Below, one piece after another: positions 1,100-49,077 of a stretch of DNA of 50,100 nt. Numbering within the stretch: position 1 is the first letter of the stretch; every line of letters begins with the position of its first letter. The stretch is taken from the IMG/VR virus record IMGVR_UViG_3300030380_002955, positions 1 to 50,100 of that record. One strand, written 5' to 3'. The notes under the pieces were generated by a model. It saw nothing but the letters and a program-made list of their open reading frames with translations, searched no databases and was not told where the DNA came from. This DNA is from a virus. The position numbers and the translations under genes are program-made.

Positions 1100-2002
1100 A
1101 TGGCAATGAATAGAGCACAATTTGCAAAAATGCTTGAGCCTGGTTTAAACACCTTGTTCGGGTTAGAGTATGATAGCTATCCACCAGAGTACACACAAGT
1201 ATTTGAAAGCAATACTTCTCAAAAAGCATTTGAGGAAGATGTATTGTTGACAGGCTTTGGTGCGGCTCCAACAAAAGATGAGGGTGCTGGAGTCAGTTAT
1301 GATTCTGCTTCTCAACAATGGACTGCTAGATATCAACATGAAACAGTAGCGTTGGCTTTCTCTGTTACAGAAGAAGCTGAAGAAGATGGACTTTATGGTT
1401 CACTAGCTTCAAGATATACAAAAGCGTTAGCGAGATCTATGGCAACAACCAAAGAAATCAAAGCCGCAACTATCTTAAACCAAGCTACTACAACTGCAGG
1501 TGGAGATGGAGTATCATTATTGAATACTGCACATCCAACTCAAAATGGCAACCAAAGTAATACTTTGGCTACTGCGGCAGATTTATCTGAAACTTCATTA
1601 GAAAGTATCTTGATAAATATTGCTGATATGAAAGATGATCGTGGTCTTAGGATCGCCGCACAAGGAACAATGTTAATTATTCCTACTGCTTATACTTTCG
1701 TAGCTGAGAGATTACTTGAAAGTCAATTAAGAACTGGAACTGCAGATAACGACTTAAATGCTATCAAGTCAGGTGGTTACCTACCTCAAGGATACCATGT
1801 AATGAGACGTTTAACAGATTCTGATCAGTTCTTTATCAAGACAGATGTACCAGATGGTCTTAAAATGTTCCAAAGAAGTCCTATGAAAAAAGGCATGGAA
1901 GGTGAATTTGAGACTGGAAATGTACGCTATAAAGTAAGAGAAAGATATTCTTTTGGTTTTACTGATTGGCGTGGAATTTTCGGAACAGAAGGTGCCGCAT
2001 AA
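1100..2002 (+). CDS. major capsid protein (HK97-fold, Mu gpT-like)
   Basis: A 300-residue protein with the features of the Mu gpT-like branch of HK97-fold capsid proteins. The N-terminal helical arm (residues 1-35) is followed by the segment around YTQVFESNTSQKAFEEDVLLTGFG. A central part matches the spine and A-domain pattern (KAATILNQA, then a HPTQNGNQSN loop and the LIIPTAYTFVAERLL strand-helix). The C-terminal part (VRYKVRERYSFGFTDWRGIFG) is the usual beta ending of such proteins. No delta domain or protease site is obvious, so scaffolding may be separate. It follows the decoration gene directly and precedes a GC-rich stem-loop, as is common for the most highly expressed structural gene. 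Confidence 0.9.
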   Translation: MAMNRAQFAKMLEPGLNTLFGLEYDSYPPEYTQVFESNTSQKAFEEDVLLTGFGAAPTKDEGAGVSYDSASQQWTARYQHETVALAFSVTEEAEEDGLYGSLASRYTKALARSMATTKEIKAATILNQATTTAGGDGVSLLNTAHPTQNGNQSNTLATAADLSETSLESILINIADMKDDRGLRIAAQGTMLIIPTAYTFVAERLLESQLRTGTADNDLNAIKSGGYLPQGYHVMRRLTDSDQFFIKTDVPDGLKMFQRSPMKKGMEGEFETGNVRYKVRERYSFGFTDWRGIFGTEGAA

Positions 2003-15399: not shown

Positions 15400-15732
15400 A
15401 TGGCTGAAGAAATGAATAATATGGGTGAAAACCCACCTATGGAAAGCCAAATGCAAATGGGTGCTGAACAAGAGGCAAGGCAAAAGATTATGGGGTCTTC
15501 CAATACAGTTGCAACCATTCTTATGTCTAGACTTATGGAAATGTCACCAAATGAATTACAAATGCTAGATAAGGCTATTACGCCAGACGTAGCAAAAGTA
15601 TTGATTAAATTACTTCCAGAGTTAAAAGATTTAATTGATGCAGTTGAGCAAGGTGGTGTTGCAGATGCAATGCCTGAAGATCAGAAGATGGATGATATGC
15701 CAGAGCAAATGGGTGCTTTAGGCAGTATGTAA
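15400..15732 (+). CDS. methionine-rich acidic small protein
   Basis: A 110-residue acidic protein with about 16% Met by eye, in clusters (MNNMGENPPMESQMQMG and MPEDQKMDDMPEQMGALGSM). The middle (SRLMEMSPNELQMLDKAITPDVAKVLIKLLPELKDLID) is one or two amphipathic helices. The last seven residues are MGALGSM, matching the end region of the 890-residue protein at 46405. It resembles the Met-rich protein at 40365 in composition. A scaffold-like or virion cargo role is plausible but unproved. It has an AAGGAGG ribosome site, and its stop overlaps the next ATG. Confidence 0.7.
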   Translation: MAEEMNNMGENPPMESQMQMGAEQEARQKIMGSSNTVATILMSRLMEMSPNELQMLDKAITPDVAKVLIKLLPELKDLIDAVEQGGVADAMPEDQKMDDMPEQMGALGSM

Positions 15733-16167: not shown

Positions 16168-17391
16168 ATGGGCAGTGCTTGTACAGTTGGAACTACACCT
16201 TTACCAGATCCAAAGAAGGTAATTAGTGGCACAGATATACCAGAATGGGTTTCGGCAGCGGGTAGAAGACTGTATGAACAAAGTGAAGAATTAGCTACCC
16301 AAGACTTTCCAGAATATACTGGACCCAGAATTGCTACATACGGAGAAGATGGTAGTAAACTTACTGAACGAGAGCAAACTGGTCTAGATTTATTAGCAGA
16401 AGGCACTGATTCATTTCAAAGCTACTTAGACAATGCAGAAACTATGGCTGGAACTCTAGGTGGTGGGTTTAATGCTGGAACATTTACTGCTGGTGACCCA
16501 AATGTAATTGTAGGCGAAAGTTTTCAAGCACCTACATTTCAAGATAGCAACACATTTGATAGAACATTTGAGTATGATCAATTTAATCCTGATATGGCAA
16601 GGCAGTATCAAAATATATTTCAAACGTCAGTTGATCCAGCGTTAGAAGAATTAAACAGACAAAGGGATCTAAGACAAACACAAAACTCTGCAGATGCAAT
16701 AAGAGCAGGGGCATTTGGTGGATCTAGATTAGGTTTAAGAGAAGCAACTACTGATGCAGAAATAGCAAGAGCAGGATCTGATTTAAGAAGACAAGCTGGA
16801 AGAGAAGGTCTGCAGTTCGCAACACAAAGGTATGATACTGATAGGACATTTGACGCTAATAGATTTGATACAGATAGAAGAAACTTTGAAGCTGATAGAG
16901 CCTATGATAGAGGTGCATTTGAATCAGATAGAGCATTTGATGCAAGCAGATTTGATGCTGATAGAGCCGCTAGATTTGGTGCTGAAGATCAAAGAAGAGC
17001 AGGATTTGAAACTGCAGAAGCCGCAAGACTTAGAGGTTTTGAGACTGATGAAGCTAGTAGATTAAGAGCCGCAGAAACATTACAAAGTTTTGCACCTTTG
17101 GCACAAAGTCTTCAAGAACAAGCCGCATCTGGATTATTGACTGCTGGACAAGCTCAAAGACAATTAGACCAAAGAGCTTTAGATTTAGCTTATGGAGATT
17201 ATTTAGAACAACGACAATACCCACAAGAACAATTAAACTTTGCTTTGGGTGCTTTACAAGGTGTGCCATATAACACTAGAACAATAGGTCTAGAGCAAGG
17301 TATGCAGTATGCACAAACACCAAGTATTTATGGACAAACAATAGGTGGACTAGGATCACTAGCTAGTGCCTATTATTTAGCTAATAGATAG
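16168..17391 (+). CDS. internal virion / DNA-ejection protein with helical repeats
   Basis: A 407-residue protein. The central LNRQRDLRQTQN followed by IRAGAFGGSRLGLREA (residues 165-200) is the pattern I associate with phage ejection/core proteins. Residues 223-305 are a long, highly charged helix made from repeats of FDxDRxx (FDANRFDTDRRNFEADRAYD, for example). The C-terminus becomes small and hydrophobic (IGGLGSLASAYYLANR). Such proteins lie inside the head and help form the channel for DNA entry. The next two genes are long, similarly placed proteins, so the three may be the ejectosome set. The motif FALGALQGV recalls the GAL pattern of the cargo block. Confidence 0.72.
   Translation: MGSACTVGTTPLPDPKKVISGTDIPEWVSAAGRRLYEQSEELATQDFPEYTGPRIATYGEDGSKLTEREQTGLDLLAEGTDSFQSYLDNAETMAGTLGGGFNAGTFTAGDPNVIVGESFQAPTFQDSNTFDRTFEYDQFNPDMARQYQNIFQTSVDPALEELNRQRDLRQTQNSADAIRAGAFGGSRLGLREATTDAEIARAGSDLRRQAGREGLQFATQRYDTDRTFDANRFDTDRRNFEADRAYDRGAFESDRAFDASRFDADRAARFGAEDQRRAGFETAEAARLRGFETDEASRLRAAETLQSFAPLAQSLQEQAASGLLTAGQAQRQLDQRALDLAYGDYLEQRQYPQEQLNFALGALQGVPYNTRTIGLEQGMQYAQTPSIYGQTIGGLGSLASAYYLANR
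16837..17090 (+). repeat. coding heptad-like repeat (FDxDRxx)
   Basis: Short degenerate repeats encode Phe-Asp/Glu-x-Asp-Arg units every 7-8 residues inside the ejection protein at 16168. The bases GATAGA recur at the Asp-Arg steps. They encode a continuous charged helix. The pattern is protein-level and not CRISPR-like (no unique spacers). Confidence 0.75.
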
Positions 17392-36550: not shown

Positions 36551-37940
36551 ACCCGGCAGAGATTTTTATGACAATTGGCATATAGATGCAGTATCAGAAC
36601 ATCTACAAGCAGTCGTAGAAGGCGATATAAAAAGACTTATAATAAATATCCCACCAAGACATATGAAGTCTATAAGCGTAGCAGTAGCACTACCAGCTTG
36701 GACTTGGACAATACAACCATCTAAAAGATTTCTATTTGCAAGTTATGCAGGATCTTTATCAATTAGAGATAGCGTTAAGTGTAGAAGATTAATTGATAGT
36801 GCTTGGTACAGAAGATATTTTGGAGATACATTTTCATTAACGTCAGATCAAAACCAAAAGCAAAGATTTGAGAATGATAAGACTGGTCAAAGAATAGCAA
36901 CGTCAGTAGATGGAGCACTAACTGGAGAAGGTGGTGACATAATAGTTATTGATGATCCACATAACGTAAGAGAAGCAGAATCATCCACAGTTAGAGAAGG
37001 AGTTCTTGAATGGTGGGATCAAGCTATGCAGACAAGATTGAACGATCCTAAGACTGGTGCATTTATTATTATTATGCAAAGAGTACATGAGAACGATCTT
37101 ACTGGGCACATATTGGCAAACGAATATAATGACTGGGATCACTTATGCTTACCCGCAAGATATGAAATAGGTCATCCAACACCTACCAAAACATCATTAG
37201 GGTTTACAGATCCAAGAACAAAAGAAGGCGAACTGCTATGGGAAAAGAGAATAGATCATAGTACATTAGAGCAATTAGAGAAAAGTCTAGGGTCATATGC
37301 AAGTGCTGGACAACTACAACAAAGACCTATGCCAAAAGGTGGTGGGATATTAAAGGCTGAATGGTGGGTTCCCTGGGAAAAAGAAGATTTGCCAGAGATA
37401 GATTACTTAGTCCAAAGCTATGATACTGCCTTCAGTACAAAAGAAACAAGTAGTTACAGTGCAAGAACTACTTGGGGTATTTTTAAGATGAATGGACAAG
37501 TTAATGCTATAGTAGTAGAAATGTGGTATGATAGAGTAACGTATCCAGAATTAAGGAAACTTGCACAAGAAGCATATGATGACTGGCAGCCTGATACAGT
37601 TTTGATAGAGAAGAAGGCTAGTGGACAAAGTTTGCTACAAGATTTAAGAATGGGTGGGATACCAGTGTTGGCTTACTCACCAGACAGAGACAAGATTGCA
37701 AGAGCACATAGTAGTTCTGCATTGTTAGAAGATGGTAGAATATATTATCCACATGGGAAAAAATGGGCAAAAAATCTAATTGATATATGTTCAGCCTTTC
37801 CTGCGGGTGATAATGATGATATAGTTGACACTTGTACACAGGCTTGGTTAAGATTGAGAAAAGGTTGGTTTATCACTCATTCTACAGATTATGACGAAGA
37901 TGATAGTACAGAAGAGAGAAGGATGACAATATATGGCTAG
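36438..37940 (+). CDS. terL: terminase large subunit
   Basis: A 500-residue packaging motor. The ATPase has a Walker A-like PPRHMKS (72-78) and Walker B IIVIDDP (168-174). The nuclease domain has D329 (QSYDTAF), E391 (VLIEKKASG) and the acidic cluster D460-D464 (GDNDDIVDT), all with normal spacing. It binds the portal and fills the head, then cuts the DNA. The start at 36438 (AGGA nine bases upstream) retains the N-terminal helix before EFTKNSWEAIEPG; an internal ATG at 36501 would remove it. It overlaps the portal gene by 8 bases. Confidence 0.93.
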   Translation: MNLANLNQSLPQLLQKVEAEEMKRSLKEFTKNSWEAIEPGRDFYDNWHIDAVSEHLQAVVEGDIKRLIINIPPRHMKSISVAVALPAWTWTIQPSKRFLFASYAGSLSIRDSVKCRRLIDSAWYRRYFGDTFSLTSDQNQKQRFENDKTGQRIATSVDGALTGEGGDIIVIDDPHNVREAESSTVREGVLEWWDQAMQTRLNDPKTGAFIIIMQRVHENDLTGHILANEYNDWDHLCLPARYEIGHPTPTKTSLGFTDPRTKEGELLWEKRIDHSTLEQLEKSLGSYASAGQLQQRPMPKGGGILKAEWWVPWEKEDLPEIDYLVQSYDTAFSTKETSSYSARTTWGIFKMNGQVNAIVVEMWYDRVTYPELRKLAQEAYDDWQPDTVLIEKKASGQSLLQDLRMGGIPVLAYSPDRDKIARAHSSSALLEDGRIYYPHGKKWAKNLIDICSAFPAGDNDDIVDTCTQAWLRLRKGWFITHSTDYDEDDSTEERRMTIYG

Positions 37941-40365
37941 AGAACCTCAAGTAATTCCCTTTGCTGAAGCTATGCCTTCAGACAATTTTCAAGTTGAAGA
38001 AATTGGTAATGATGAAGTTCTAGTTGGTGATCCAAGTCTAGACATTGAAGAGAAGTCAGAAACTGGCTTTGATGAAAACTTAGCAGAACAAATTGATGCA
38101 AAAGAATTAAATGCAGTCGCTAGTGATTTAATTAGTTTTTATGAAACAGATAAGAACGCTAGATCAGAGTGGGAGTTTAGATATAAGCAAGGCTTAGAGA
38201 CATTAGATCCACAAGGTGGTCAAGAGGAAGAAGAAGATCAAAGAGCATCAAGAGGATTGAGTACTGTAGTTCATCCTATGATAGCAGAAGCCGCAACACA
38301 ATTTAATGCAAGAGCAATAGCAGAATTATATCCAAGTGGCGGGCCAGTCAAAACTGTAATAGTTGGCGATCCAAATGAGGAGATGGAAGAACAGGCAAAA
38401 AGAGTAAAAGATTATATGAATTATCAGATTACTCAAGAGATGCCAGAGTACTTTCCAGATTTAGATCAGATGTTATTTCAGCTACCATTAGTTGGTCATA
38501 CATTTAAAAAAATATGGTGGGATGCAAACTTAGAAAGACAGTGTTCTCAATTCGTGAAAGCAGAAGACTTTGTAGTATCGCCAGAGAGTAAAGATCTTTA
38601 TACGTCTATTAGATATACTCATGTAATTAGAATGCCAAGAAACGACTTTAACAAGTATGTGCAGTCTGGTTTATATCTACCAAGCAAATATACCTCAGAA
38701 GACATAGATCCAAGTGGAGATATTGGAAGTGAGATAGAAGGCGTAGATCCTTACAATAGTGAATCTAAAGATGAGGTAATGACATTGTTAGAGATGCATT
38801 GCTATCAAAGTTTTGATGGAATTGATGATGTAGATCAAGATGAAGATAATCAAGTTCACCTACCTTATGTAGTTACAATTGACTATGATTCAGAAAAGGT
38901 TGTTGCAGTAAGACGTAATTGGGAAGAAGAAGATAAGAAAAAGAAAAGAAGAGATTGGTTCGTAAGTTACAAGTTTTTACCAGGAACTGGGTTCTATGGT
39001 TTTGGTTTGTATCATATGATAGGTGGACTTGGTAGAGCGGCTACTGGGTCATTAAGAGCACTGTTAGATAGTGCGGCTTTTGCAAATATGCAAGGTGGGT
39101 TTAAATTAAAGGGTAGAGTTACTGGTGGAGAGATGCAGATTAATCCAGGTGAATTTGCTGACTTGGATGCTACTGTAGATGATGTGAACAAAGCGATAAT
39201 GCCACTGCCTTTTAAAGAACCATCTCAAACCTTGTTCAATCTAATGAATGCTATCACTGATATTGGTAGAAGATTTGCGAATACTGCAGACCTAAATGTT
39301 GGGGATGTTAATCCAAATGCTCCCGTTGGAAGTACTGTCGCACTGATTGAGCAAGGTAGTAAATCATTTAGTGCCATACACAAAAGATTACATTATGCAC
39401 AAGGGCAAGAGTTTAAACTTTTATCTAAATTAAATGCAGAGTATCTACCAGAACAATTTAAGTTTGCACAAAGTGGTGTAGATACAATTATATATGCTAA
39501 AGACTTTAACGATAGAATAGATATTATTCCAGTCAGTGATCCAAACATATTTAGTACTGCACAAAGAATAGCACAAGCTCAAGCAGTGTTACAGATGGCT
39601 AATTCAGCACCTCAACTACATGATCAGTATGAGGCGTACAAAAGAATGTATGAAGCGATTAGAATTAATAATATTGATGAAATACTTAAAGCACCAGAAG
39701 AAGCAGTTAGATTAGATCCAATAGATGAAAATATGTCTGTTATGTATGGTAAGCCTATAAGAGCATTCCCAGAGCAAGACCATGATAGTCACATTGCAGT
39801 ACATATGCAGTTTTTATCTGATCCTTCTCTAGCTGGAAATCCAGGGGCAAGAGCTATGCAACCAATATTAATTGCTCATATAGCTGAACATATAGCATTG
39901 TTGTACAGGCAGCGGATGCAAAGTGGTATTAATATGGAGATGCCTCCATTGCCAAATCTCAAAGATCCAAAGTTTAAATTTGAGGATATAGATCCAGCGA
40001 CAGATATGGTCATAAGTCAAAGGGCGGCTGAAGTAGTTAAACAAGCACCACAAATGCAGGCAATTGCACCGCTACTAGCAATGGCAAATCAGCAACAACA
40101 AGCTAGTAACCCATTACAATATGCACAAGAACTTGCTAAACTAGAGGCAGAGGCGTTGAAAGCTAGAACACAAGTGCAGATACAAGCTGATCAAGCTAAA
40201 GCACAACAGAAACTAGCAATCAATGAAGCAGAAGCTAAGCAAGATATGCAAATAGAGCAAGCTAAGTTACAACAAGAATTACAAGCAAAAGTAGCAAAGC
40301 TAGAATTAGAACTACAATTAGAACGAGAAAAAAACGCTATTAAACTACAAAAGGAGCTAAGATAA
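37933..40365 (+). CDS. portal protein (P22-like)
   Basis: An 810-residue portal of short-tailed phages. It has an acidic N-terminus, the core marked by SEWEFRYKQGLETLD and VVHPMIAEAATQFNARAIAE, a wing region (ISPESK-like DFVVSPESKD), GFGLYHMIGGLGRAATGSLR near 360, and TADLNVGDVNPNAPVGSTVA near the channel. The last 110 residues are a very regular Gln/Ala/Lys coiled coil (QELAKLEAEALKARTQVQIQ), matching the long barrel of P22-type portals. Twelve copies form the DNA gate and dock TerL. The cargo block begins directly at its stop (one-base overlap). Confidence 0.9.
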   Translation: MAREPQVIPFAEAMPSDNFQVEEIGNDEVLVGDPSLDIEEKSETGFDENLAEQIDAKELNAVASDLISFYETDKNARSEWEFRYKQGLETLDPQGGQEEEEDQRASRGLSTVVHPMIAEAATQFNARAIAELYPSGGPVKTVIVGDPNEEMEEQAKRVKDYMNYQITQEMPEYFPDLDQMLFQLPLVGHTFKKIWWDANLERQCSQFVKAEDFVVSPESKDLYTSIRYTHVIRMPRNDFNKYVQSGLYLPSKYTSEDIDPSGDIGSEIEGVDPYNSESKDEVMTLLEMHCYQSFDGIDDVDQDEDNQVHLPYVVTIDYDSEKVVAVRRNWEEEDKKKKRRDWFVSYKFLPGTGFYGFGLYHMIGGLGRAATGSLRALLDSAAFANMQGGFKLKGRVTGGEMQINPGEFADLDATVDDVNKAIMPLPFKEPSQTLFNLMNAITDIGRRFANTADLNVGDVNPNAPVGSTVALIEQGSKSFSAIHKRLHYAQGQEFKLLSKLNAEYLPEQFKFAQSGVDTIIYAKDFNDRIDIIPVSDPNIFSTAQRIAQAQAVLQMANSAPQLHDQYEAYKRMYEAIRINNIDEILKAPEEAVRLDPIDENMSVMYGKPIRAFPEQDHDSHIAVHMQFLSDPSLAGNPGARAMQPILIAHIAEHIALLYRQRMQSGINMEMPPLPNLKDPKFKFEDIDPATDMVISQRAAEVVKQAPQMQAIAPLLAMANQQQQASNPLQYAQELAKLEAEALKARTQVQIQADQAKAQQKLAINEAEAKQDMQIEQAKLQQELQAKVAKLELELQLEREKNAIKLQKELR

Positions 40366-40883: not shown

Positions 40884-41921
40884 ATGGCTGAAAGACTTGG
40901 TGCATTAGGAAATCTAACTAGAGGCGAATTTGATAAATTGTCTTTAGGTGTACAAGGACAAAATGATGGTACAGATTTATTTGGTCTGTATAATTTTACT
41001 CCAACTACTGCCCTAACTAGTGGACTTGGCTTTGTTGGTGGAATGGGAACACCAATAGCAGTTGGGTCTTTGATAGGAAATTATCAAGCAGAAGAAGCCG
41101 CAAATAAATTATTAGGCAATCCAACAAACTTTATGAATAATGTAAAGCAACCATCAAACCCAAATTCTGCAGTGCAAACAGTAAGAGGAATGATTTCTGA
41201 CACTGATAAAGATGGTGTAATAAGTAATTATGAGATGAACCAATTTGGTCAAAGCATACCAGGATTAGACTTAGCTTCTATGTACACTGGTGGCAATCCA
41301 AATAAAATGGTAAAAGGTGCTGGAGGCAAAATGATGCCATCTGATGCAAAGGCAAACCCTTACAGTAGTCGTTCTTTTCAAAACCAAATGAATAGAGGTT
41401 TTTATTTTGATGACACAATTTCTCAAAACCAAATAGATGATAATATGAAGTCAACCAAAGACTACGCCGCTGATGCAATCAATCAAACTAACGTAACAAA
41501 CATGAAGGGATACGATCCTAATTTTGCCAAAGCAGTTACAAGAGAAAATCAAGAGGCATCTGGAAGTGGTGGTGATGGAACTTATATTTGTACTGCACTC
41601 TATGAAATGGGTGAAATGAAAAAATATATCTACAAATATGATCAAGTTTATGGCAAGAGAGTTGACCCTAATGTATATCGTGGATATTGTTTATGGGGTA
41701 AGTATGTAGCTACAAAACTAAGGTATAAAGGCTTTACATATAAAATAGTTAAACCTTTAGCACTAGCATGGGCAAAACAAATGGCTTTTGACTTATCCAA
41801 AGGTAGATATGGCAAGAACAATAAGGTTGTAAAGGTTATAAGTAAAATAGGCGAAGGTGTATGTTATGCACTTGGTCTTATTGTAAATATTAAACTTAAA
41901 AAAGGAGTAAAATATGGCTGA
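40884..41921 (+). CDS. cargo/ejection protein with EF-hand and shared C-terminal domain
   Basis: A 345-residue protein. It begins MAERLGALGNL, carrying the GAL motif. Residues 106-117 (DTDKDGVISNYE) are a canonical EF-hand loop. Residues 233-340 (YICTALYEMGEMKKYIYKYD, then YRGYCLWGKYVATKLR and ICYALG-like GVCYALGLIVN) follow the same plan as the C-terminal domain of the protein at 14006. A small-residue stretch near residue 50 (GLGFVGGMGTPIAVGSLIG) may touch membranes. It is likely a virion-internal protein delivered with DNA, because its paralogous domain sits in the ejection block. Confidence 0.66.
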   Translation: MAERLGALGNLTRGEFDKLSLGVQGQNDGTDLFGLYNFTPTTALTSGLGFVGGMGTPIAVGSLIGNYQAEEAANKLLGNPTNFMNNVKQPSNPNSAVQTVRGMISDTDKDGVISNYEMNQFGQSIPGLDLASMYTGGNPNKMVKGAGGKMMPSDAKANPYSSRSFQNQMNRGFYFDDTISQNQIDDNMKSTKDYAADAINQTNVTNMKGYDPNFAKAVTRENQEASGSGGDGTYICTALYEMGEMKKYIYKYDQVYGKRVDPNVYRGYCLWGKYVATKLRYKGFTYKIVKPLALAWAKQMAFDLSKGRYGKNNKVVKVISKIGEGVCYALGLIVNIKLKKGVKYG

Positions 41922-42206: not shown

Positions 42207-42488
42207 ATGCAAAATATACCAAATGATATTGGTGCTTTAGCAAATTTACAAAAGGCTATCCCATTAAGTGATATGCCAGAAGGTAGGGTTGAGCAAGTGG
42301 GCGAGGATTATGGAGTAATAGCTCAATTCATCGGTCCAAATTTAGAAGATGCTATTAGTGTTTTCAAAGAGGGTAATGGATATTATGCAAGTGGACATAA
42401 CTTTGATTTTTTTGCCAGCGATATTCCTGATCTTATGAAAAAACTTAAAGTATATGGTGCAACTGAACTTTATTATGGGAGATTATAA
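42207..42488 (+). CDS. small hypothetical cargo-block protein
   Basis: A 93-residue protein starting MQNIPNDIGALANLQKAIPL, with the GAL motif at residues 8-14, followed by a compact beta-helix part (GVIAQFIGPNLEDAISVFKE, FFASDIPDLMKKLKVYGATE). No family recognised. It lies 2 bases after the acidic gene and 2 bases before the polylysine peptide. A cargo adaptor or small enzyme fold is possible. Confidence 0.62.
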   Translation: MQNIPNDIGALANLQKAIPLSDMPEGRVEQVGEDYGVIAQFIGPNLEDAISVFKEGNGYYASGHNFDFFASDIPDLMKKLKVYGATELYYGRL

Positions 42489-42490
42489 TC

Positions 42491-42634
42491 ATGCCAGGAA
42501 AAGTATACTCAAAAAAACAACAGAAGATAGCCAACGTAGCAAAGCCAAGAAACAAGTTGACTGGTGCTGATTTTAAAAAATTAGCCATGCTTAAAAAGAA
42601 AAAGAAAAAAAAGACTAAAACAAAGATGGCATAA
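42491..42634 (+). CDS. 47-residue polylysine basic peptide
   Basis: A short gene (MPGKVYSKKQQKIANVAKPR, then NKLTGADFKKLAML followed by seven lysines in a row and TKTKMA) that fills exactly the gap between two genes, ending one base before the next ATG. About 40% of residues are Lys by eye. It should bind nucleic acid or compact DNA, as do other basic peptides in this block. It is placed after an acidic protein gene that might neutralise it before packaging. Confidence 0.6.
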   Translation: MPGKVYSKKQQKIANVAKPRNKLTGADFKKLAMLKKKKKKKTKTKMA

Positions 42635-43900
42635 ATGGCTGATCCCATTGTACGAAATCTAGTAAAGCAATTCTTAACTAAGAACTTTAAACCATTATTT
42701 AGCAGTAATGAGCTTGGAGCATTAGGTAATATTAGCAATACAAGCGAAGATTTAATTAAAAAGTTTGGTGCTTTGCCTAAATTTGAGATTACTGGCGAAG
42801 ATTTGAGAAGCGTTGGTGCTGAAAAATTTAGAATGAAAGACTTTCTTTATGAAAACCCATTACCTTTTCAAATGGATTTTACAGAATTAAAAGGAGCACA
42901 AAGAGATCCACTTAAAGACTTTTCCATGAGAGCACAAGTGGGTGCAATACAGAAAGATCCTACACTTGCTTCAGATGCATCTTTGCTAAAAGGTAAAACG
43001 ATTGTTCCATTAGTTGGAGATAGGTCAAGTAGAGACGTTATTATAACTGGAATAGGTGATATAGATTTTGAAAACCCAGTCAGAACAAGTGGTGGTATTC
43101 AATTCATGGATGACAAAGATCAAAGCTGGGCTTCAATGATGTCAGTTATGAAGGATATCAATAAGACTGTAGAGACAGTAGAACAGATGGGTGGTAAGCC
43201 AGTTGGCATGACAACTGCTATGGGTGCATCTGGTGGTGATTTTTCATTAGATACTGCAAACTTAATAATTGAATCATTAAAAGCAAAAAAATTATCAAGA
43301 AAACAACTTGATGATATTACTGATGCAATTCGTAATAAAGTAAAAGATGGTAAAACTCCTTTTGCAAATATGCCAAATTTAAACAATATGAATGAGTTTG
43401 AAAGTTATTTTAAAGGATTAGTAGGATCACCTAGAAGTGAATTGGTGAAAGCATTTGATAAGGCAAAAGTACAAGATGCTGGCGGCCCGAACATAGGTCA
43501 GTTGAGATTTGCAGTTACAAACCCAGGATTAATAGCAGAGGATTTTCTAGGCATGGGTGGCAGATTTTCAGACATTAAGTCAGGCATGACACCTAGCACA
43601 CACCCATCATACGACACAAAGATATCTAAAGCACCAGGAGCAGAAGTATTTACTTTTGGAACTGGAATACCAAGAACTATCATGCTTAGAGAGCCTATGA
43701 AGAATGTTAGAGCAGAAGGCAAAGGTTTTGGTACGTTAAAGGCAATGCCCGCAGATCAAAGAAAACTGCAAATGGACTTGCCTGTTCAGCCAGTTGACCA
43801 ACAATTAATAGATGAAGCATCTAAATTCTTAGAAATAAAAAGAAATCTAGGCGATAAAGAAGCCTATGAGTATGCACAAAGATTAATACCAGCTACATAG
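42635..43900 (+). CDS. polyvalent-protein-type domain protein, free-standing
   Basis: A 421-residue protein. Residues 118-170 (GKTIVPLVGDRSSRDVIITG, then PVRTSGGIQFM and DQSWASMM) and the later VGMTTAMGASGGDFSL match a conserved region of large polyvalent phage proteins (GDRS...GG..FM...WAS...M..DFS). The segment after 322 (HPSYDTKISKAPGA) also fits that region. The N-terminus has LGALGNI at 27-33. In other phages this region is embedded in multi-thousand-residue proteins delivered into the cell; here it is a separate gene. Its enzymatic role is unknown to me. Confidence 0.68.
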   Translation: MADPIVRNLVKQFLTKNFKPLFSSNELGALGNISNTSEDLIKKFGALPKFEITGEDLRSVGAEKFRMKDFLYENPLPFQMDFTELKGAQRDPLKDFSMRAQVGAIQKDPTLASDASLLKGKTIVPLVGDRSSRDVIITGIGDIDFENPVRTSGGIQFMDDKDQSWASMMSVMKDINKTVETVEQMGGKPVGMTTAMGASGGDFSLDTANLIIESLKAKKLSRKQLDDITDAIRNKVKDGKTPFANMPNLNNMNEFESYFKGLVGSPRSELVKAFDKAKVQDAGGPNIGQLRFAVTNPGLIAEDFLGMGGRFSDIKSGMTPSTHPSYDTKISKAPGAEVFTFGTGIPRTIMLREPMKNVRAEGKGFGTLKAMPADQRKLQMDLPVQPVDQQLIDEASKFLEIKRNLGDKEAYEYAQRLIPAT

Positions 43901-43908
43901 GAGTTGAT

Positions 43909-44088
43909 ATGGCAGTTAAGAAAAAGAAAAGCACAAAAAAGAAAGGTTCTATACCTACAAATAAAGCGTTATATGCTAGAGTAAAAGCAGAAGCAAAACG
44001 TAAATTTGATGTTTATCCCTCCGCATATGCAAATGCCTGGCTTGTTCGGACATACAAAAAACGAGGTGGAGGCTATAGGTCAGCATAA
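43909..44088 (+). CDS. small basic protein, marine-phage type
   Basis: A 59-residue basic protein. The N-terminus is lysine-rich (AVKKKKSTKKKGS). The C-terminal part KAEAKRKFDVYPSAYANAWL, followed by TYKKRGGGYRSA, is a pattern I recognise from marine phages and large DNA viruses (PSAYAN...YKxRGGxYR). The function is not established. The gene overlaps the next by one base. Size, charge and repeated association with other basic genes suggest a capsid-internal or DNA-binding protein. Confidence 0.68.
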   Translation: MAVKKKKSTKKKGSIPTNKALYARVKAEAKRKFDVYPSAYANAWLVRTYKKRGGGYRSA

Positions 44089-44381
44089 TGGCAAAGACTA
44101 GTGGTGGACTTACAAAGTGGTTTAAACAAGATTGGGTAGATATTGGCTCTAAGAAGAAAGGTGGTGGCTTTGCCAAGTGTGGTAGGACAAAACAAAAGAA
44201 AGATGCCAAGAGAAAATATCCTAAGTGTGTGCCTAGAGCAAAAGCAAACGCTATGTCTAAATCACAGATTAAGTCTGCAGTAACAAGAAAGAGATCAAAA
44301 GCTCAAGGAGTTGGTGGTAAACCTACAAACGTAAAAACAATAGTGAAAAGGAAGAAAAAAAATGGCAAAAAAAGCAGTTGA
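44088..44381 (+). CDS. DUF5872-like basic protein
   Basis: A 97-residue strongly basic protein with GGLTKWFKQDWVDIGSKKKG, FAKCGRTK, KRKYPKCVPRAKANAMS and SAVTRKRSKAQGVGGKPTNV. This order (LxxWFKxxWVDIGxxKKGGGxxxCGR, YPKCVPxxKA, RKRxKxQ) is the pattern of a family I remember as DUF5872, widespread in marine phages. Two conserved Cys are present. Possible roles are DNA compaction or a small metal-binding virion protein. It overlaps the next gene by 20 bases and follows another basic gene. Confidence 0.72.
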   Translation: MAKTSGGLTKWFKQDWVDIGSKKKGGGFAKCGRTKQKKDAKRKYPKCVPRAKANAMSKSQIKSAVTRKRSKAQGVGGKPTNVKTIVKRKKKNGKKSS

Positions 44382-44523
44382 AGCACCTAAAGGTTTTCAT
44401 TGGATGAAGTCTGGCAGCGGATTCAAGTTAATGAAAGGCGAGTATAAGCCACATAAAGGTGCAGTTAAAAAGGCTTCATTTGATATACAAACAGTACATA
44501 CGTCAGCACAAAAGAAGAAGTAA
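44362..44523 (+). CDS. 53-residue basic peptide
   Basis: A small gene (MAKKAVEAPKGFHWMKSGSG, then FKLMKGEYKPHKGAVKKASF) embedded between two longer basic genes, overlapping the first by 20 bases and the second by one. GFHWMKSGSGFKLMKGEYKP is a distinctive beta-hairpin-like motif. Similar small K-rich proteins are common in marine phages. The function is unknown, but the overlaps support a coding unit of the basic cluster. Confidence 0.6.
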   Translation: MAKKAVEAPKGFHWMKSGSGFKLMKGEYKPHKGAVKKASFDIQTVHTSAQKKK

Positions 44524-44780
44524 TGGCTACCTATAAGGGCAAAAAGGTTACACTAAACAAACCTAGACGTATTGCTAAAGGTGAAACATCCTATGGCAAA
44601 AAGAAGTCTGTGGTTTATGTTACTGATGGAGATAGAATAAAGCGTGTAACTTTTGGTGATCCTAATATGAAGATCAAGAAAAACCAAAAAGGTAATAGAA
44701 AGAGTTTCAGAGCTAGACATAACTGTGACACACCTGGACCGAAAACAAAGGCTAGGTATTGGTCATGTAAGGCTTGGTAG
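44523..44780 (+). CDS. small basic protein with Cys pair, marine-phage family
   Basis: An 85-residue basic protein with VVYVTDGDRIKRVTFGDPNM, followed by KSFRARHNCDTPGPKTKARY and WSCKAW at the end. This pattern (KRVTFGDPNMxI...RRxSFRARHNCD...KARYWSCKxW) is a small family I associate with marine phages (DUF6321-like, from memory). The two Cys and His could bind a metal ion. Its TAG is one base before the next gene's start codon. Role unknown; capsid-internal protein is plausible. Confidence 0.7.
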   Translation: MATYKGKKVTLNKPRRIAKGETSYGKKKSVVYVTDGDRIKRVTFGDPNMKIKKNQKGNRKSFRARHNCDTPGPKTKARYWSCKAW

Positions 44781-44781
44781 C

Positions 44782-45627
44782 ATGAATATAGGTGCTTTAA
44801 GACAACTTGTGAAACAAGGTGCGAAACAAAACAAGATTGTTGGTAATCCATTTAGTAGTAAGGATGATATTGAAAATTATTTCAGAAGTGAAATAAGGCG
44901 TGGAGCTTTACCTAAGAAAAACCAAAAATACTTTGATACCTTTGATCCTAACATTTACTATCATTCCACCATAGAGGACATAGATAAATTTGATCCTCAA
45001 ATGTCAATAGAAAAAGGTGCTTATGGTCAAGACAGTATATTTGATCCTCTAGACACAAGAGGTGCAACTTATTTTACAAGTGACAAAGAACTAGCTAATC
45101 AAGTCTTGCAAGATAAAAGAATAATGACACAAGCAGAATATAACAGACAAAAAAGAAATATGGGTAGTGGTCAATATCCAGACTTTGATGTTGATACTGT
45201 GTATAATCCAAAAACAGATGAAGAATTTTTATCTGCATCACGAATATATCCAGTTAAAATTAAAACAGATAAATTATTTGATTTTGAAGACGATGTTGAT
45301 TTTGACAAGTTAGAAGAAAAAATATTAGCAAAGTTCTCTGACGAAAGTGATGAATATAAACTTCTAAATAGAGTTCAATCTGGAGAATGGTCTATCCTTG
45401 AAAGACCACAAATACAAAAAGAACTAAAAGAGCTAGGATTTACAGGATATAGAACAAGCGAAGCTGGGACAGTAGGTTTGTTTAATCCAGATAAAGGCGA
45501 TGTAAGAAGCCTATACGCTAAGTTTGATCCTAAAGAGGCTAAGAGTGGCGAGATACTAGCAACTATTGTTCCATATGCCTCTGTGGGCACTATAGGAGCA
45601 CTAGCAGGCTTGGATGAGGGCACATAA
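44782..45627 (+). CDS. ADP-ribosyltransferase-like cargo protein
   Basis: A 281-residue protein starting MNIGALRQL. Residues 59-101 (IYYHSTIEDIDKFDP, then GATYFTSDKELANQVL) and 216-245 (ELKELGFTGYRTSEAG, then VGLFNPDKGDVRSLYAKF) match the ART-like domain of phage polyvalent and MuF-type proteins (YHxT...GATYFT...GYDG...VFNPxxIxS). H61, Y97 and E227 could form the H-Y-E type set. The C-terminus carries another IGALAGL. It would ADP-ribosylate a host target after DNA entry; substrate and activity are inference. The start at 44782 is used rather than 44725, which lies inside the previous gene. Confidence 0.65.
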   Translation: MNIGALRQLVKQGAKQNKIVGNPFSSKDDIENYFRSEIRRGALPKKNQKYFDTFDPNIYYHSTIEDIDKFDPQMSIEKGAYGQDSIFDPLDTRGATYFTSDKELANQVLQDKRIMTQAEYNRQKRNMGSGQYPDFDVDTVYNPKTDEEFLSASRIYPVKIKTDKLFDFEDDVDFDKLEEKILAKFSDESDEYKLLNRVQSGEWSILERPQIQKELKELGFTGYRTSEAGTVGLFNPDKGDVRSLYAKFDPKEAKSGEILATIVPYASVGTIGALAGLDEGT

Positions 45628-46211
45628 TGGTAAAGCCTATAGTAAAAAAAGGTATTGAAGAACTATTTGGTGCATTACCCAAGTCTTTAAATGATCTAAG
45701 AAAGGGTGCAACTATTAGAATAGATAATCCACAATTTTTAGATGTGTTGACTGGCGAAACATACGTTGAAAAAAAAATTAGAGAAAATAACGAATACATA
45801 GAAGATCTAGTAAAAAATTATGGTAAACCAAGAGAGGATATAACTATAGGCAATGTAAGTGGAGTGACTGGCTTTGCTGATAATATTAAATTAAGTCCAA
45901 AAGAAATATTCAACATAAAAGGTCATGCTGGAGAAGAAAAATATAGAATGTCTAGTCCACAATTAGAAAGATTAAAAGAAAGCATAGCTAAAGAAGGTTA
46001 TCGTAAGGCTGATGAAGGTGGCGAAAGAATACTAATTCATGTAAGAGAAGATGGAGTTCCTTTTATTACAGAAGGTAATCATAGAATGGTAGAAGCGTAT
46101 CAATCCAATAGACCTTTTATCTCTGCTGATATAAGATACCTAAGAGGATCAGAGAACGTAGACGGGCCGCTAAATCCTAAGAGAATAGGAATAGACTTTG
46201 GTGAGGAGTAA
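45627..46211 (+). CDS. ParB-like domain cargo protein
   Basis: A 194-residue protein. The GAL motif is at residues 14-18 (LFGALPKSL). Residues 105-170 form a ParB/sulfiredoxin-like domain: SSPQLERLKESIAKEGYRKA, then ILIHVREDGVPFITEGNHRM with GNHR at 150-153. ParB-like domains hydrolyse CTP or act as nucleases; in polyvalent phage proteins they appear as one of many modules. The N-terminal 100 residues are unassigned. It overlaps the ART-like gene by one base, so the two are co-translated. Confidence 0.66.
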   Translation: MVKPIVKKGIEELFGALPKSLNDLRKGATIRIDNPQFLDVLTGETYVEKKIRENNEYIEDLVKNYGKPREDITIGNVSGVTGFADNIKLSPKEIFNIKGHAGEEKYRMSSPQLERLKESIAKEGYRKADEGGERILIHVREDGVPFITEGNHRMVEAYQSNRPFISADIRYLRGSENVDGPLNPKRIGIDFGEE

Positions 46212-46213
46212 TT

Positions 46214-46405
46214 ATGGCTAGAAGTAAAGTTAAAAAAGTTGCAAACGCTGAGATCAGAGCGGCAAAAACATTTCTAAATAAAAAAGGATTATCTACAGAA
46301 GAGGTAAGTCCAAAGAAGTTTGCACAAGCCGCAAAGAAACTTGACAAGAGTTTTAAAGAAACTTTACAGATATTAGCTAGAGAATTAAGTGGTGGACAAG
46401 TTTAA
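46214..46405 (+). CDS. small basic helical protein
   Basis: A 63-residue Lys/Ala-rich helical protein (VKKVANAEIRAAKTFLNKKG, then VSPKKFAQAAKKLDKSFKET). No family known. It is spaced 2 bases after the ParB-like gene and overlaps the 890-residue gene by one base. Charge and placement suggest a DNA-binding or assembly partner within the cargo block. Confidence 0.58.
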   Translation: MARSKVKKVANAEIRAAKTFLNKKGLSTEEVSPKKFAQAAKKLDKSFKETLQILARELSGGQV

Positions 46406-49077
46406 TGGCTGAGAATGCATTCACGCCATATGGAACTACAGACGCTAGTATTCGTAGAGAAACAGAACGCTTATCTGATCAAAAGTATATGGATATGCAA
46501 AAGCAGAGAGAAGATCTGTATGGACTGCCTTTAAAATCACTTGAGCCATCACAAAGAGATAAAGACACAAAAAAAACACAAGAGATGTTATCTTATCTAG
46601 GACTAAAGCCAGAAACATCAACAAGATTTGCTAGAGATTTAATAGGTAGGGATAGATATGATCCCGCTGCCAGTGCAGGAGTTTTAGATTTTACACCTTA
46701 TGCACCTTTAGTTTACGATTTACCTCAAGACATAGATGAGTTTAAAAGAGCAAGAGAAGCTGGAAGTTTAAGTGGTCAATTGTACAGTGGTGCAATGATA
46801 GGTTTAGATGTGCTTAGTCCATTGCCTTTTGGATTGTTGGCTAACAGAGTATTTGGTAATCCATTAAAAAAGTTTGCAAAGTCAGTTGGTGATAAAGTAA
46901 AAGGCGATACTACACCAAAGATAGGTGCATTTTCATCAATATTAGAGCAACCTACAGTACAACCTAAGATGATTGCTAATACTAAACTACAAGCACCAAG
47001 TATGGCTATGGTAAACCCTAGAAAGGTAGATGACTTAGGATTTTATTATAAGTCAGAAGAGGTTGCTAATACTATGCAACAAAAGAAAGGATCAGGGGAA
47101 CAATTCTTGGCTTTCTTTAAGAATAAAGGCGTAAAAGATAGTGAGTTATATGATACTGGCTTAGAGGAGTTATTTAAAAGAGATAAAGTCACCAAAAAAG
47201 ATATATTAGATAATATTGATTTAAATAGATTGCAGTTACAAGAAAGGACTTATGTTGGTAGCGATGTAAGCAGTAACTTAATATTTGAAGATATAACAAA
47301 AAAACTAGAATACAAAACACCAGAGTTTAACAAATATAGTCAAAACGAATTAGATAGTATGGATGGTGTGGATTTAAATGATATACCTGATGGAACAGTT
47401 TCAACAAGAGTGTTGGAAGACACAAAAACTGGATATAAGATTGTATATGATGAAAATGGAGAAAATTTTCTAACATACAGACCAAATACAGATATATTTG
47501 ATATTGAGCAATCAGAACAAGCTAGAGCACTTATAGATGAGCATGAGACGTTAGAAGGTTTTAGATTTGATGAAATAGCTCAAAAGGGAAATATAAACGA
47601 AGCTACAGTAGCTACTGAAGGTATTGCTATAAACAATGGCGATTATATAAGTACAGATGCTAGATTTGCAGATAACACACAAAAAGGTGGCACTAATTAT
47701 AAAGAATATGTATTGAGAAGGCAGTCATTTAATCCAACTATGGCTATGAGAAATGAATATGTGAAGCCAGATGATTTTCAAAATCAGATACATTATGAAG
47801 ATTTTAATCCTATATTTCATGTAAGAACAAAAGATAGAACTACTACAGATGGTGGTAAAACTCTTTACACAGAGGAGTTGCAGTCAGATAGAGGTCAACA
47901 AGGTAGAAAATATGGATTTAGTTCTGGTAAAAACTTTGATGAAACAGTAGCAAAATACAAAGAATTAAATGATAAAGTCATTGATGTATTTACAGATTTA
48001 CCTGTCAAACTAAAAAGTATGGAACAAGAATATCTTTATCAGTTAAAAAATCCAGGGAAACCACCAATAAGAATACCATTAAGAAGTGACTTAAATCAGG
48101 ATCAAATAAACTATTTTTCTAGACAGTCATCGTCAGGCAGGGCAAGACTTGATAATGATGACTTTTTAGACTTTGAAGCAAGTAGAATGCCAGATGAATA
48201 TAAAACTATGAAGTTATCAGACTATATAGAGTTTTTAAGTGACCCAAATAATCCAATAAGAAATGATATAGAAACATTAAATCTTATGAGAAATATAGGT
48301 GGCGTAAGTCAATTATATCAGATAGGAAAAGTACCTAATAGGATTGATTTTAATAGCTTAGATAAAGAAAAACAGTTAAATCTTTTACGTTCAGCTTTGC
48401 AAGATATACAATACTCAAGATATGATTTGAGTAAAAGTAGGCATAACAATGCATTCCCAGATTTAGATACCTTTGCTGGATTCGCTGATGATTTAAGAAA
48501 TGATTTAACACAAACATATAATAAATTACAAGGTAACGTACCTGGTGGAGATTTAGTTGATAATACTGAGGACTGGACAAGATTAGGCATAAAAAGACTA
48601 TTACAGAAAGCAGTTGAAGGTAATTATGATTCTGTTACATTCTCGCCTGGTCAAATACAAGTTGATAGATGGGGAAACCCAAAGCTCAAAGATTTTTACG
48701 ATAATATAATACCAAAGATGGCAAAAGAAGTCGCTGGAAAGAAGAATGTAGGTATAAAAGAAGTTGAGATAGCACCAAATGATTTTCATACAATATTTAT
48801 GAGAGGAAGTAGTGCTATGGATAGACGATATTTTGTATCAAGAGTTGGAACAGATAGACCTATAGCTGGGTTTGATACATTAGAAGATGCACAAAGATAT
48901 GTTAAAAACCTAGATAGTATAGAAAATCAAAAGTCTATAGCCATTACAATCACACCAGAACTGAAAGAAAAAGTATTAAAAGGATTATCTTTATTTACTA
49001 TGGGTGGTGCAGTTCTAGGACTAGAAGAGCAGATAGGAGCACTAGGCAGTATGCCTAGCACTCAAAATTTAACTTAG
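46405..49077 (+). CDS. large polyvalent-type protein
   Basis: An 890-residue protein that assembles regions I know from giant polyvalent phage proteins. Near residue 212 comes FYYKSEEVANTMQQKKGSGE, then FLAFFKNKGVKDSEL and KRDKVTKKDILD. Near 430, GGTNYKEYVL. Near 471-500, HVRTKDRTTTDGGKTLYTEE leading into ELQSD...QQGRKYGF. Near 727-750, LGIKRLLQKAVEGNYDSVTF with PGQIQVDRW. In known members EELQSD is followed by WHQ; here it is RGQ, so the site may be altered. The N-terminus has a hydrophobic SGAMIGLDVLSPLPFGLLAN stretch. The C-terminus ends IGALGSMPSTQNLT. Likely delivered to host cells; activity unknown. Confidence 0.72.
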   Translation: MAENAFTPYGTTDASIRRETERLSDQKYMDMQKQREDLYGLPLKSLEPSQRDKDTKKTQEMLSYLGLKPETSTRFARDLIGRDRYDPAASAGVLDFTPYAPLVYDLPQDIDEFKRAREAGSLSGQLYSGAMIGLDVLSPLPFGLLANRVFGNPLKKFAKSVGDKVKGDTTPKIGAFSSILEQPTVQPKMIANTKLQAPSMAMVNPRKVDDLGFYYKSEEVANTMQQKKGSGEQFLAFFKNKGVKDSELYDTGLEELFKRDKVTKKDILDNIDLNRLQLQERTYVGSDVSSNLIFEDITKKLEYKTPEFNKYSQNELDSMDGVDLNDIPDGTVSTRVLEDTKTGYKIVYDENGENFLTYRPNTDIFDIEQSEQARALIDEHETLEGFRFDEIAQKGNINEATVATEGIAINNGDYISTDARFADNTQKGGTNYKEYVLRRQSFNPTMAMRNEYVKPDDFQNQIHYEDFNPIFHVRTKDRTTTDGGKTLYTEELQSDRGQQGRKYGFSSGKNFDETVAKYKELNDKVIDVFTDLPVKLKSMEQEYLYQLKNPGKPPIRIPLRSDLNQDQINYFSRQSSSGRARLDNDDFLDFEASRMPDEYKTMKLSDYIEFLSDPNNPIRNDIETLNLMRNIGGVSQLYQIGKVPNRIDFNSLDKEKQLNLLRSALQDIQYSRYDLSKSRHNNAFPDLDTFAGFADDLRNDLTQTYNKLQGNVPGGDLVDNTEDWTRLGIKRLLQKAVEGNYDSVTFSPGQIQVDRWGNPKLKDFYDNIIPKMAKEVAGKKNVGIKEVEIAPNDFHTIFMRGSSAMDRRYFVSRVGTDRPIAGFDTLEDAQRYVKNLDSIENQKSIAITITPELKEKVLKGLSLFTMGGAVLGLEEQIGALGSMPSTQNLT

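Follow-up and report, generated by a model that had tools for sequence, protein, structure and literature searches.

We found that a marine phage known from a linear IMG/VR virus record of 50.1 kilobases (kb) (IMGVR_UViG_3300030380_002955; the window below means all 50,100 nucleotides of this stretch) carries, between its portal and capsid genes, a block in which cargo domains are encoded by separate genes and in which unrelated products share a short terminal motif, a hydrophobic residue followed by G-A-L ([ILVFM]-G-A-L near the N- or C-terminus; GAL below denotes the three letters, which mostly follow a hydrophobic residue). On balance, we favour the reading that this is an exchangeable block of virion cargo in which each large product would bear its own terminal capsid-loading tag.

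The window encodes a primase/helicase, a terminase, a T7-type portal and a capsid protein. Judged by the portal, the Roseobacter phages CRP-902 and CRP-901 are its nearest isolates (73% identity); pelagiphages and Caulobacter phages come next, with about 40%, and the group is marine. The portal gene (37933..40365; PHROG 1216, E 1e-31; the product is 73% identical to that of CRP-902) is the left border of the block, and the major capsid protein gene (PHROG 371, E 1e-23) lies at 1100..2002; both, and all genes below, are on the plus strand unless stated otherwise. The gene order in locus L020 and in CRP-902 showed that portal and capsid genes bracket the block in relatives, with a GroES gene and a gene of about 310 amino acids (aa) between block and capsid genes, outside the linear window. 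The initial annotation had described four neighbouring genes, starting at 42635, 44782, 45627 and 46405, as regions that many phages fuse into one giant polyvalent protein, here separate and mixed with strongly basic small proteins between portal and capsid. We confirmed the four open reading frames (ORFs) at these positions and denote their products G, T (ART-like), P (ParB-like) and E, respectively. Their location was also borne out, as in window-type phages they sit between portal and capsid/GroES genes, near virion structural genes.

GAL was present in the product of 40884..41921 (N-terminal MAERLGALGN; 17 of 18 members of its family, whose genes all lie in the block, have GAL close to the N-terminus) and in the 93 aa product of 42207..42488 (N-terminal NDIGALANL; 4 of 4 family members). 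The stand-alone G protein, which contains the GDRS/WAS region (42635..43900, 421 aa), has it at aa 28 and 45; T (44782..45627, 281 aa) has it at both termini (MNIGALRQL ... GTIGALAGLDEGT); P (45627..46211, 194 aa) starts with LFGALPKSL; and the E protein with its EELQSD and AVEGNYD regions (46405..49077, 890 aa; E domain at aa 413-799) ends with EEQIGALGSMPSTQ. The length of T is counted from an ATG; a longer start at 44725 is a GTG and overlaps the preceding gene. In the structure models of G and E, the tags fall in low-confidence tails.

In the portal-to-GroES interval (the bay), the window products hold 10 motif sites in 2,846 aa, compared with 1 in 13,043 aa for the rest of the window, a count made with a pattern that was chosen after seeing the sites. 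Because such a choice biases the count, we compared protein families. In the discovery set, terminal GAL was found in most members of 12 of 34 bay families and 2 of 112 others (p 2.9e-7), the top contrast among all 3-mers. A held-out set was then assembled from 72 new loci retrieved via the conserved 63 aa gene of the block, with used contigs dropped and only families absent from the discovery set retained. GAL was again the top 3-mer (13 of 51 bay families versus 4 of 90 others, p 6.5e-4), with bay borders being approximate where portal or GroES lies off the contig. Codons differ between sites, which rules out GAL as a DNA recombination linker and indicates that the constraint acts on protein. 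Outside the block, a 110 aa product (15400-15732) ends with MGALGSM, very like the IGALGSMPSTQ of the E C-terminus; its gene is directly upstream of 16168-17391, which matches PHROG 4287 'DNA ejection protein', and it may be another head-internal protein.

The block is also exchangeable. The portal-GroES interval measures 9-11 kb in MW202675 ('Myoviridae sp. ct7L0027'), CRP-901/902 and window-type phages (L001-L003), and is nearly empty in distant relatives that share the gene order (HTVC023P 1.5 kb, DSL-LC04 0.9 kb, Caulobacter RW 0.8 kb, Pag-Yong1 0.2 kb); T, P and E domains were not found in the fetched region of these four. Among close relatives of the window phage, identity is 78-95% for terminase, portal and capsid proteins, and for the bay domains of the same phages it is 25-66% (G), 31-90% (T) and 31-53% (E). 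T or P is absent from some members of the group, T is duplicated in L017 and L019, cargo products are often replaced or only 25-66% identical, and the CRP-902 bay carries a PBECR5 nuclease (gp65, E 2e-11). Within the window group this interval, an insertion bay, is the variable part. In most relatives an additional gene of 144-194 aa (for example L001 6868-7329) separates the 63 aa gene from that of E; the window lacks it in its 46211-46405 region.

The domain reading of the initial annotation was correct, since the same domains recur in fused ORFs of other phages. First-pass hidden Markov models (HMMs) trained on window-type phages only found matches among the ORFs of other phages, 19 for G, 86 for E, 4 for P and 7 for T, with best E-values of 5e-28, 2e-58, 3e-17 and 2e-10, respectively. 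When these 5,536 ORFs were reversed or shuffled, none matched at E<=0.01. The E matches arise partly by construction, because most outgroup loci were gathered with an E-domain query; the G, P and T matches do not. Iterated models revealed T-E-G fusions in L053, L071 and L093, T-P-T-E in L040, P-E-T in L066, E-G fusion ORFs, and all four domains in a single ORF of L255 in the order T-T-T-P-E-G. Some of the proteins that contain a homologue of E reach several thousand aa. In the same interval of MW202675, an 898 aa protein combines G with a polyvalent InPase domain (PF18823, E 2e-47): its residues 400-721 are homologous to window G, and the InPase forms its C-terminal part. Another protein of this phage joins a strong ART-PolyVal domain (E 1e-17) to a GNAT and an M15 peptidase domain, and an E domain lies within an 847 aa protein. 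No relative of its G domain was found on plasmids.

Several related proteins were observed in addition. In Dolichospermum phage Dfl-JY45 (L024 7127-14290), one protein of 2,387 aa contains four matches to ART-PolyVal and E twice. A contig that binning had assigned to a Candidatus Paceibacterota genome (L106 5017-9135) encodes an E protein that is nearly identical, in the tree, to that of virus contig L090, and is probably phage DNA binned with the genome. In the product of L005 15710-18406, motifs of the GGRIGYxDGG / GGAV type stand between domains at aa 302 and 725; such motifs are enriched in the cargo ORFs of its group (81 in 197 thousand aa versus 43 in 409 thousand aa).

Comparison with relatives revealed both fused and split versions, even within the window group, where a 361 aa protein of L019 joins a 190 aa gene (alone in L001) to P (alone in the window). 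Among the 88 ORFs with an E domain, T, P and G are all absent from 62, some of which are truncated or contain unrecognised domains, and 26 are fused to T, P or G. On the E tree, the split/fused state changed at least 9 times when only well-supported branches were counted and 20 times in all, and it was no more clustered than shuffled labels; this tree yielded neither a root nor a direction of change, and favoured neither the disassembled nor the ancestral unfused system suggested initially. Iyer et al. (2017) described solo forms of polyvalent domains beside virion genes and suggested these as the pieces from which polyvalent proteins were built (PMC5512222), and phage P1 packages six separate Dar proteins (PMC9024508). 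With solo E commoner than fused E, and similar blocks in CRP-901/902, separate cargo genes are not a new arrangement, and the initial suggestion of an unusual one is not supported.

Next, we found a different shared terminus in phages with fused cargo, here termed freshwater after MW202675 (spring water) and not after the origin of each contig. Their polypeptides of differing domain content end alike (for example GGSVDNALALTRRFTKDG), with a C-terminal module AL[AS]LTRRFTKDG that is common to E, G, T-E, P-T and P-E-T polypeptides. The pattern AL.[LAVMI][TS][RSK] occurs no further than 35 aa from the C-terminus in 36 of 205 cargo ORFs and in 12 of 1,669 others; of these 12, several adjoin cargo genes. 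Since many of these ORFs are close relatives, a family-level test is safer; there, the best 4-mers were found in 6 of 52 versus 0 of 473 families (p 7e-7; 1,399 tested). Tentatively, phages may load unrelated cargo by a common peptide tag specific to the lineage, terminal GAL in the marine group and AL[AS]LTRRFTKDG in the freshwater group, a generalisation that we hold with less confidence than the reading of the marine block.

The best-surviving alternative is that the products are ordinary solo polyvalent-type domains, virion or early-infection proteins encoded beside the portal, with GAL a common linker or helix cap. The literature precedent for solo forms (PMC5512222) and their frequency among our E ORFs agree with this; however, GAL emerged as the top terminal 3-mer twice, in independent families and with different codons, and another module is shared at the C-termini of the second phage group, so that we regard this explanation as possible but rather unlikely. 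We give still less credence to GAL as a processing site at which a prohead protease, like those of T4 or SPN3US, would cut, so that split and fused genes would yield the same mature pieces. GAL does occur at domain boundaries: in the L019 fusion each part retains it, the second at the junction of the 361 aa protein. Moreover, propeptide removal in heads is known (PMC10052503) and polyvalent proteins are predicted to be processed. Yet no protease came to light in the window or close to it, the known sites of the SPN3US prohead protease follow AxE and are unlike GAL (PMC10052503), and cuts at the C-terminal tags would free just 3-15 residues, which makes processing improbable. That the products are unpackaged, and are made in the infected cell to act on host defences or metabolism, is the least probable of all, for although nothing in this analysis directly shows packaging, the genes lie in a head-gene block, homologous domains are found in proteins proposed to be virion-borne (PMC5512222), and one structural match of G is labelled 'Structural protein' in Flavobacterium phage elemoC (the basis of the label was unchecked).

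The ART-like and ParB-like calls of the initial annotation are weak points: the first draws on relatives, the second on a motif and on matches below threshold. Window T scored 18.1 bits against ART-PolyVal (PF18760; E 0.005), below the Pfam cut-off of 31.2 bits, and T of L003 scored 22.9 bits (E 1.6e-4), also below it; we call window T ART-like because such relatives score closer. Of the H-Y-D active site, T retains the strand 1 His and the strand 2 Tyr/Phe; the window copy has GFTG and TVGLF in place of the acidic positions of canonical G[FYH]DG and [ED]xVxF. A conserved Glu in between (TSE/TNE) could substitute for the third catalytic acid, and the second T copy of L019 and T of L021 look canonical at the active site; enzymatic activity of T is uncertain. 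In P, an invariant EGN[HT]R motif (EGN-x-R) was found in 27 sequences, four of which touch ParB_N weakly (best E 0.062), and the top four PDB sequences for a broad P profile are all ParB proteins at a sub-threshold E of 0.06-0.08. The motif and these matches are suggestive of a ParB/sulfiredoxin-like protein. A DdrB-type ParB (PF18763) was not supported (hhalign probability <1% with low-diversity profiles), and a PF18763 search in 369 genomes gave one match below the cut-off and no usable set.

G and E gave nothing significant in Pfam, PHROGs or PDB profile searches. The G model (predicted local distance difference test score, pLDDT, 85.7) resembled only viral proteins, with 17 matches, and in the E model the prediction was good for the core alone (mean 71). 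Fold searches returned no PDB match for either at E<=0.001; scattered matches of E to the GNAT fold (E>0.2) were disregarded. An alignment-based scan for distant G relatives had too few conserved stretches to find any.

Several observations weigh against the reading of the block as tagged cargo. The motif has three letters and was found post hoc, and the held-out test backs its enrichment, not its function. It may be N-terminal, C-terminal or both, unlike a classic single signal, and the small basic proteins do not have it. The catalytic acid of window T is not conserved, so some cargo may be inactive or structural. In the literature searched, we found neither a shared cargo tag nor virion proteomics of these phages.

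The mixture with small basic proteins noted initially was confirmed by five products of 53-97 aa with isoelectric points (pI) of 10.3-11.2 and 24-33% K+R. They are a DUF5872 protein (43909..44088; PF19197, E 3.2e-9, above the cut-off; pI 10.7), a 97 aa protein of charge +29 (44088..44381; PHROG 23735, E 1.6e-21), a 53 aa protein that is 84-86% identical in three relatives (44362..44523; pI 10.3), an 85 aa protein that is 88% identical to CRP902_gp67, annotated 'HVA1 family' (44523..44780; PHROG 7595, E 1.2e-13), and the conserved 63 aa protein (46214..46405), 69-97% identical in the relatives compared and present in CRP-901/902. The HVA1-like protein has at least 596 relatives in IMG/VR, including contigs >100 kb, and is far more widespread than the window phage group. 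A minus-strand ORF (42445-42738) spans the gap before the G gene and is kept at 54-72% identity in L015, L017, L019 and L021; it is probably conserved regulatory DNA and not a gene.

Together, these data suggest how a tagged cargo block might work, with packaging, the role of the motif, injection and enzymatic action being the steps that we infer. Each cargo domain has its own gene in the interval from portal to GroES/capsid, and, in the most likely mechanism, GAL would dock the product to a common procapsid partner, which could be the shell, the scaffold or the portal. Fused domains would need one tag and split domains one each. The small basic proteins may enter with or on the DNA, and the whole set would leave the head with the DNA at infection to work on the host, in the way that polyvalent proteins have been proposed to do. 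Delivery into the host cell is plausible from gene position and homology.

If phages do load cargo by such lineage-specific tags, cargo genes could be freely gained, lost, split and fused while each polypeptide keeps one tag, and the system would be a phage counterpart of encapsulin loading peptides and a common capsid targeting sequence of the kind sought in P1, where none was found. If the tag is a loading signal, virion cargo of uncultured phages would become recognisable from sequence, and how phages select their internal head proteins would become testable with short peptides in laboratory phages. The terminal tag is the part most worth an experiment. The block is also a natural unfused counterpart of giant polyvalent proteins, in which every domain can be expressed, deleted and assayed singly.

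Finally, we compared the block with known systems. It resembles the polyvalent proteins of Iyer et al. (PMC5512222) in its ART-PolyVal relatives, in G occurring beside InPase and P beside ART, in its late-gene location and in the proposed delivery with DNA. Unlike them, each window product has one recognised domain, and no Pfam model matches E or G; because of the single domains, we regard the products as solo relatives and not as polyvalent proteins. Like the P1 Dar system (Hdf, DarA, DdrA, DdrB, Ulx, DarB; PMC9024508), the block would comprise a set of separate head proteins. In P1 a short terminal segment suffices for packaging, as the N-terminal 30 aa of DarB direct a reporter into heads (PMC9024508), a role that the window tag may share. 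BLAST found no common signal among the Dar N-termini (PMC9024508), whereas the window products share a motif, and window P shows no detectable homology to the ParB domain of DdrB. The C-terminal domain of the N4 vRNAP is also needed for encapsidation (cited as unpublished data in PMC4496689). T4 likewise has internal head proteins, among them the ADP-ribosyltransferase Alt packaged in the head (PMC5512222) and IPIII, which carries a capsid targeting sequence (quoted in PMC9024508); the tag described here is not that of T4, and we claim no sequence relation. CRP-901 and CRP-902 (PMC10149686) share the structural genes and have a block of this kind that includes HVA1-like and 63 aa products and, in CRP-902, a G homologue (gp72), but E, T and P homologues were not found in their blocks. 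MW202675 has the same domains as the window in the same interval, in larger proteins of 739 (GNAT+M15+ART), 847 (E) and 898 aa (G+InPase) and with another C-terminal module on the latter two. A parallel to the proposed tag, by analogy only, is the loading of encapsulins, whose loading peptides GAL may resemble. There, short peptides at either end of unrelated cargo proteins direct them into a shell of the HK97 fold (PMC7355545).

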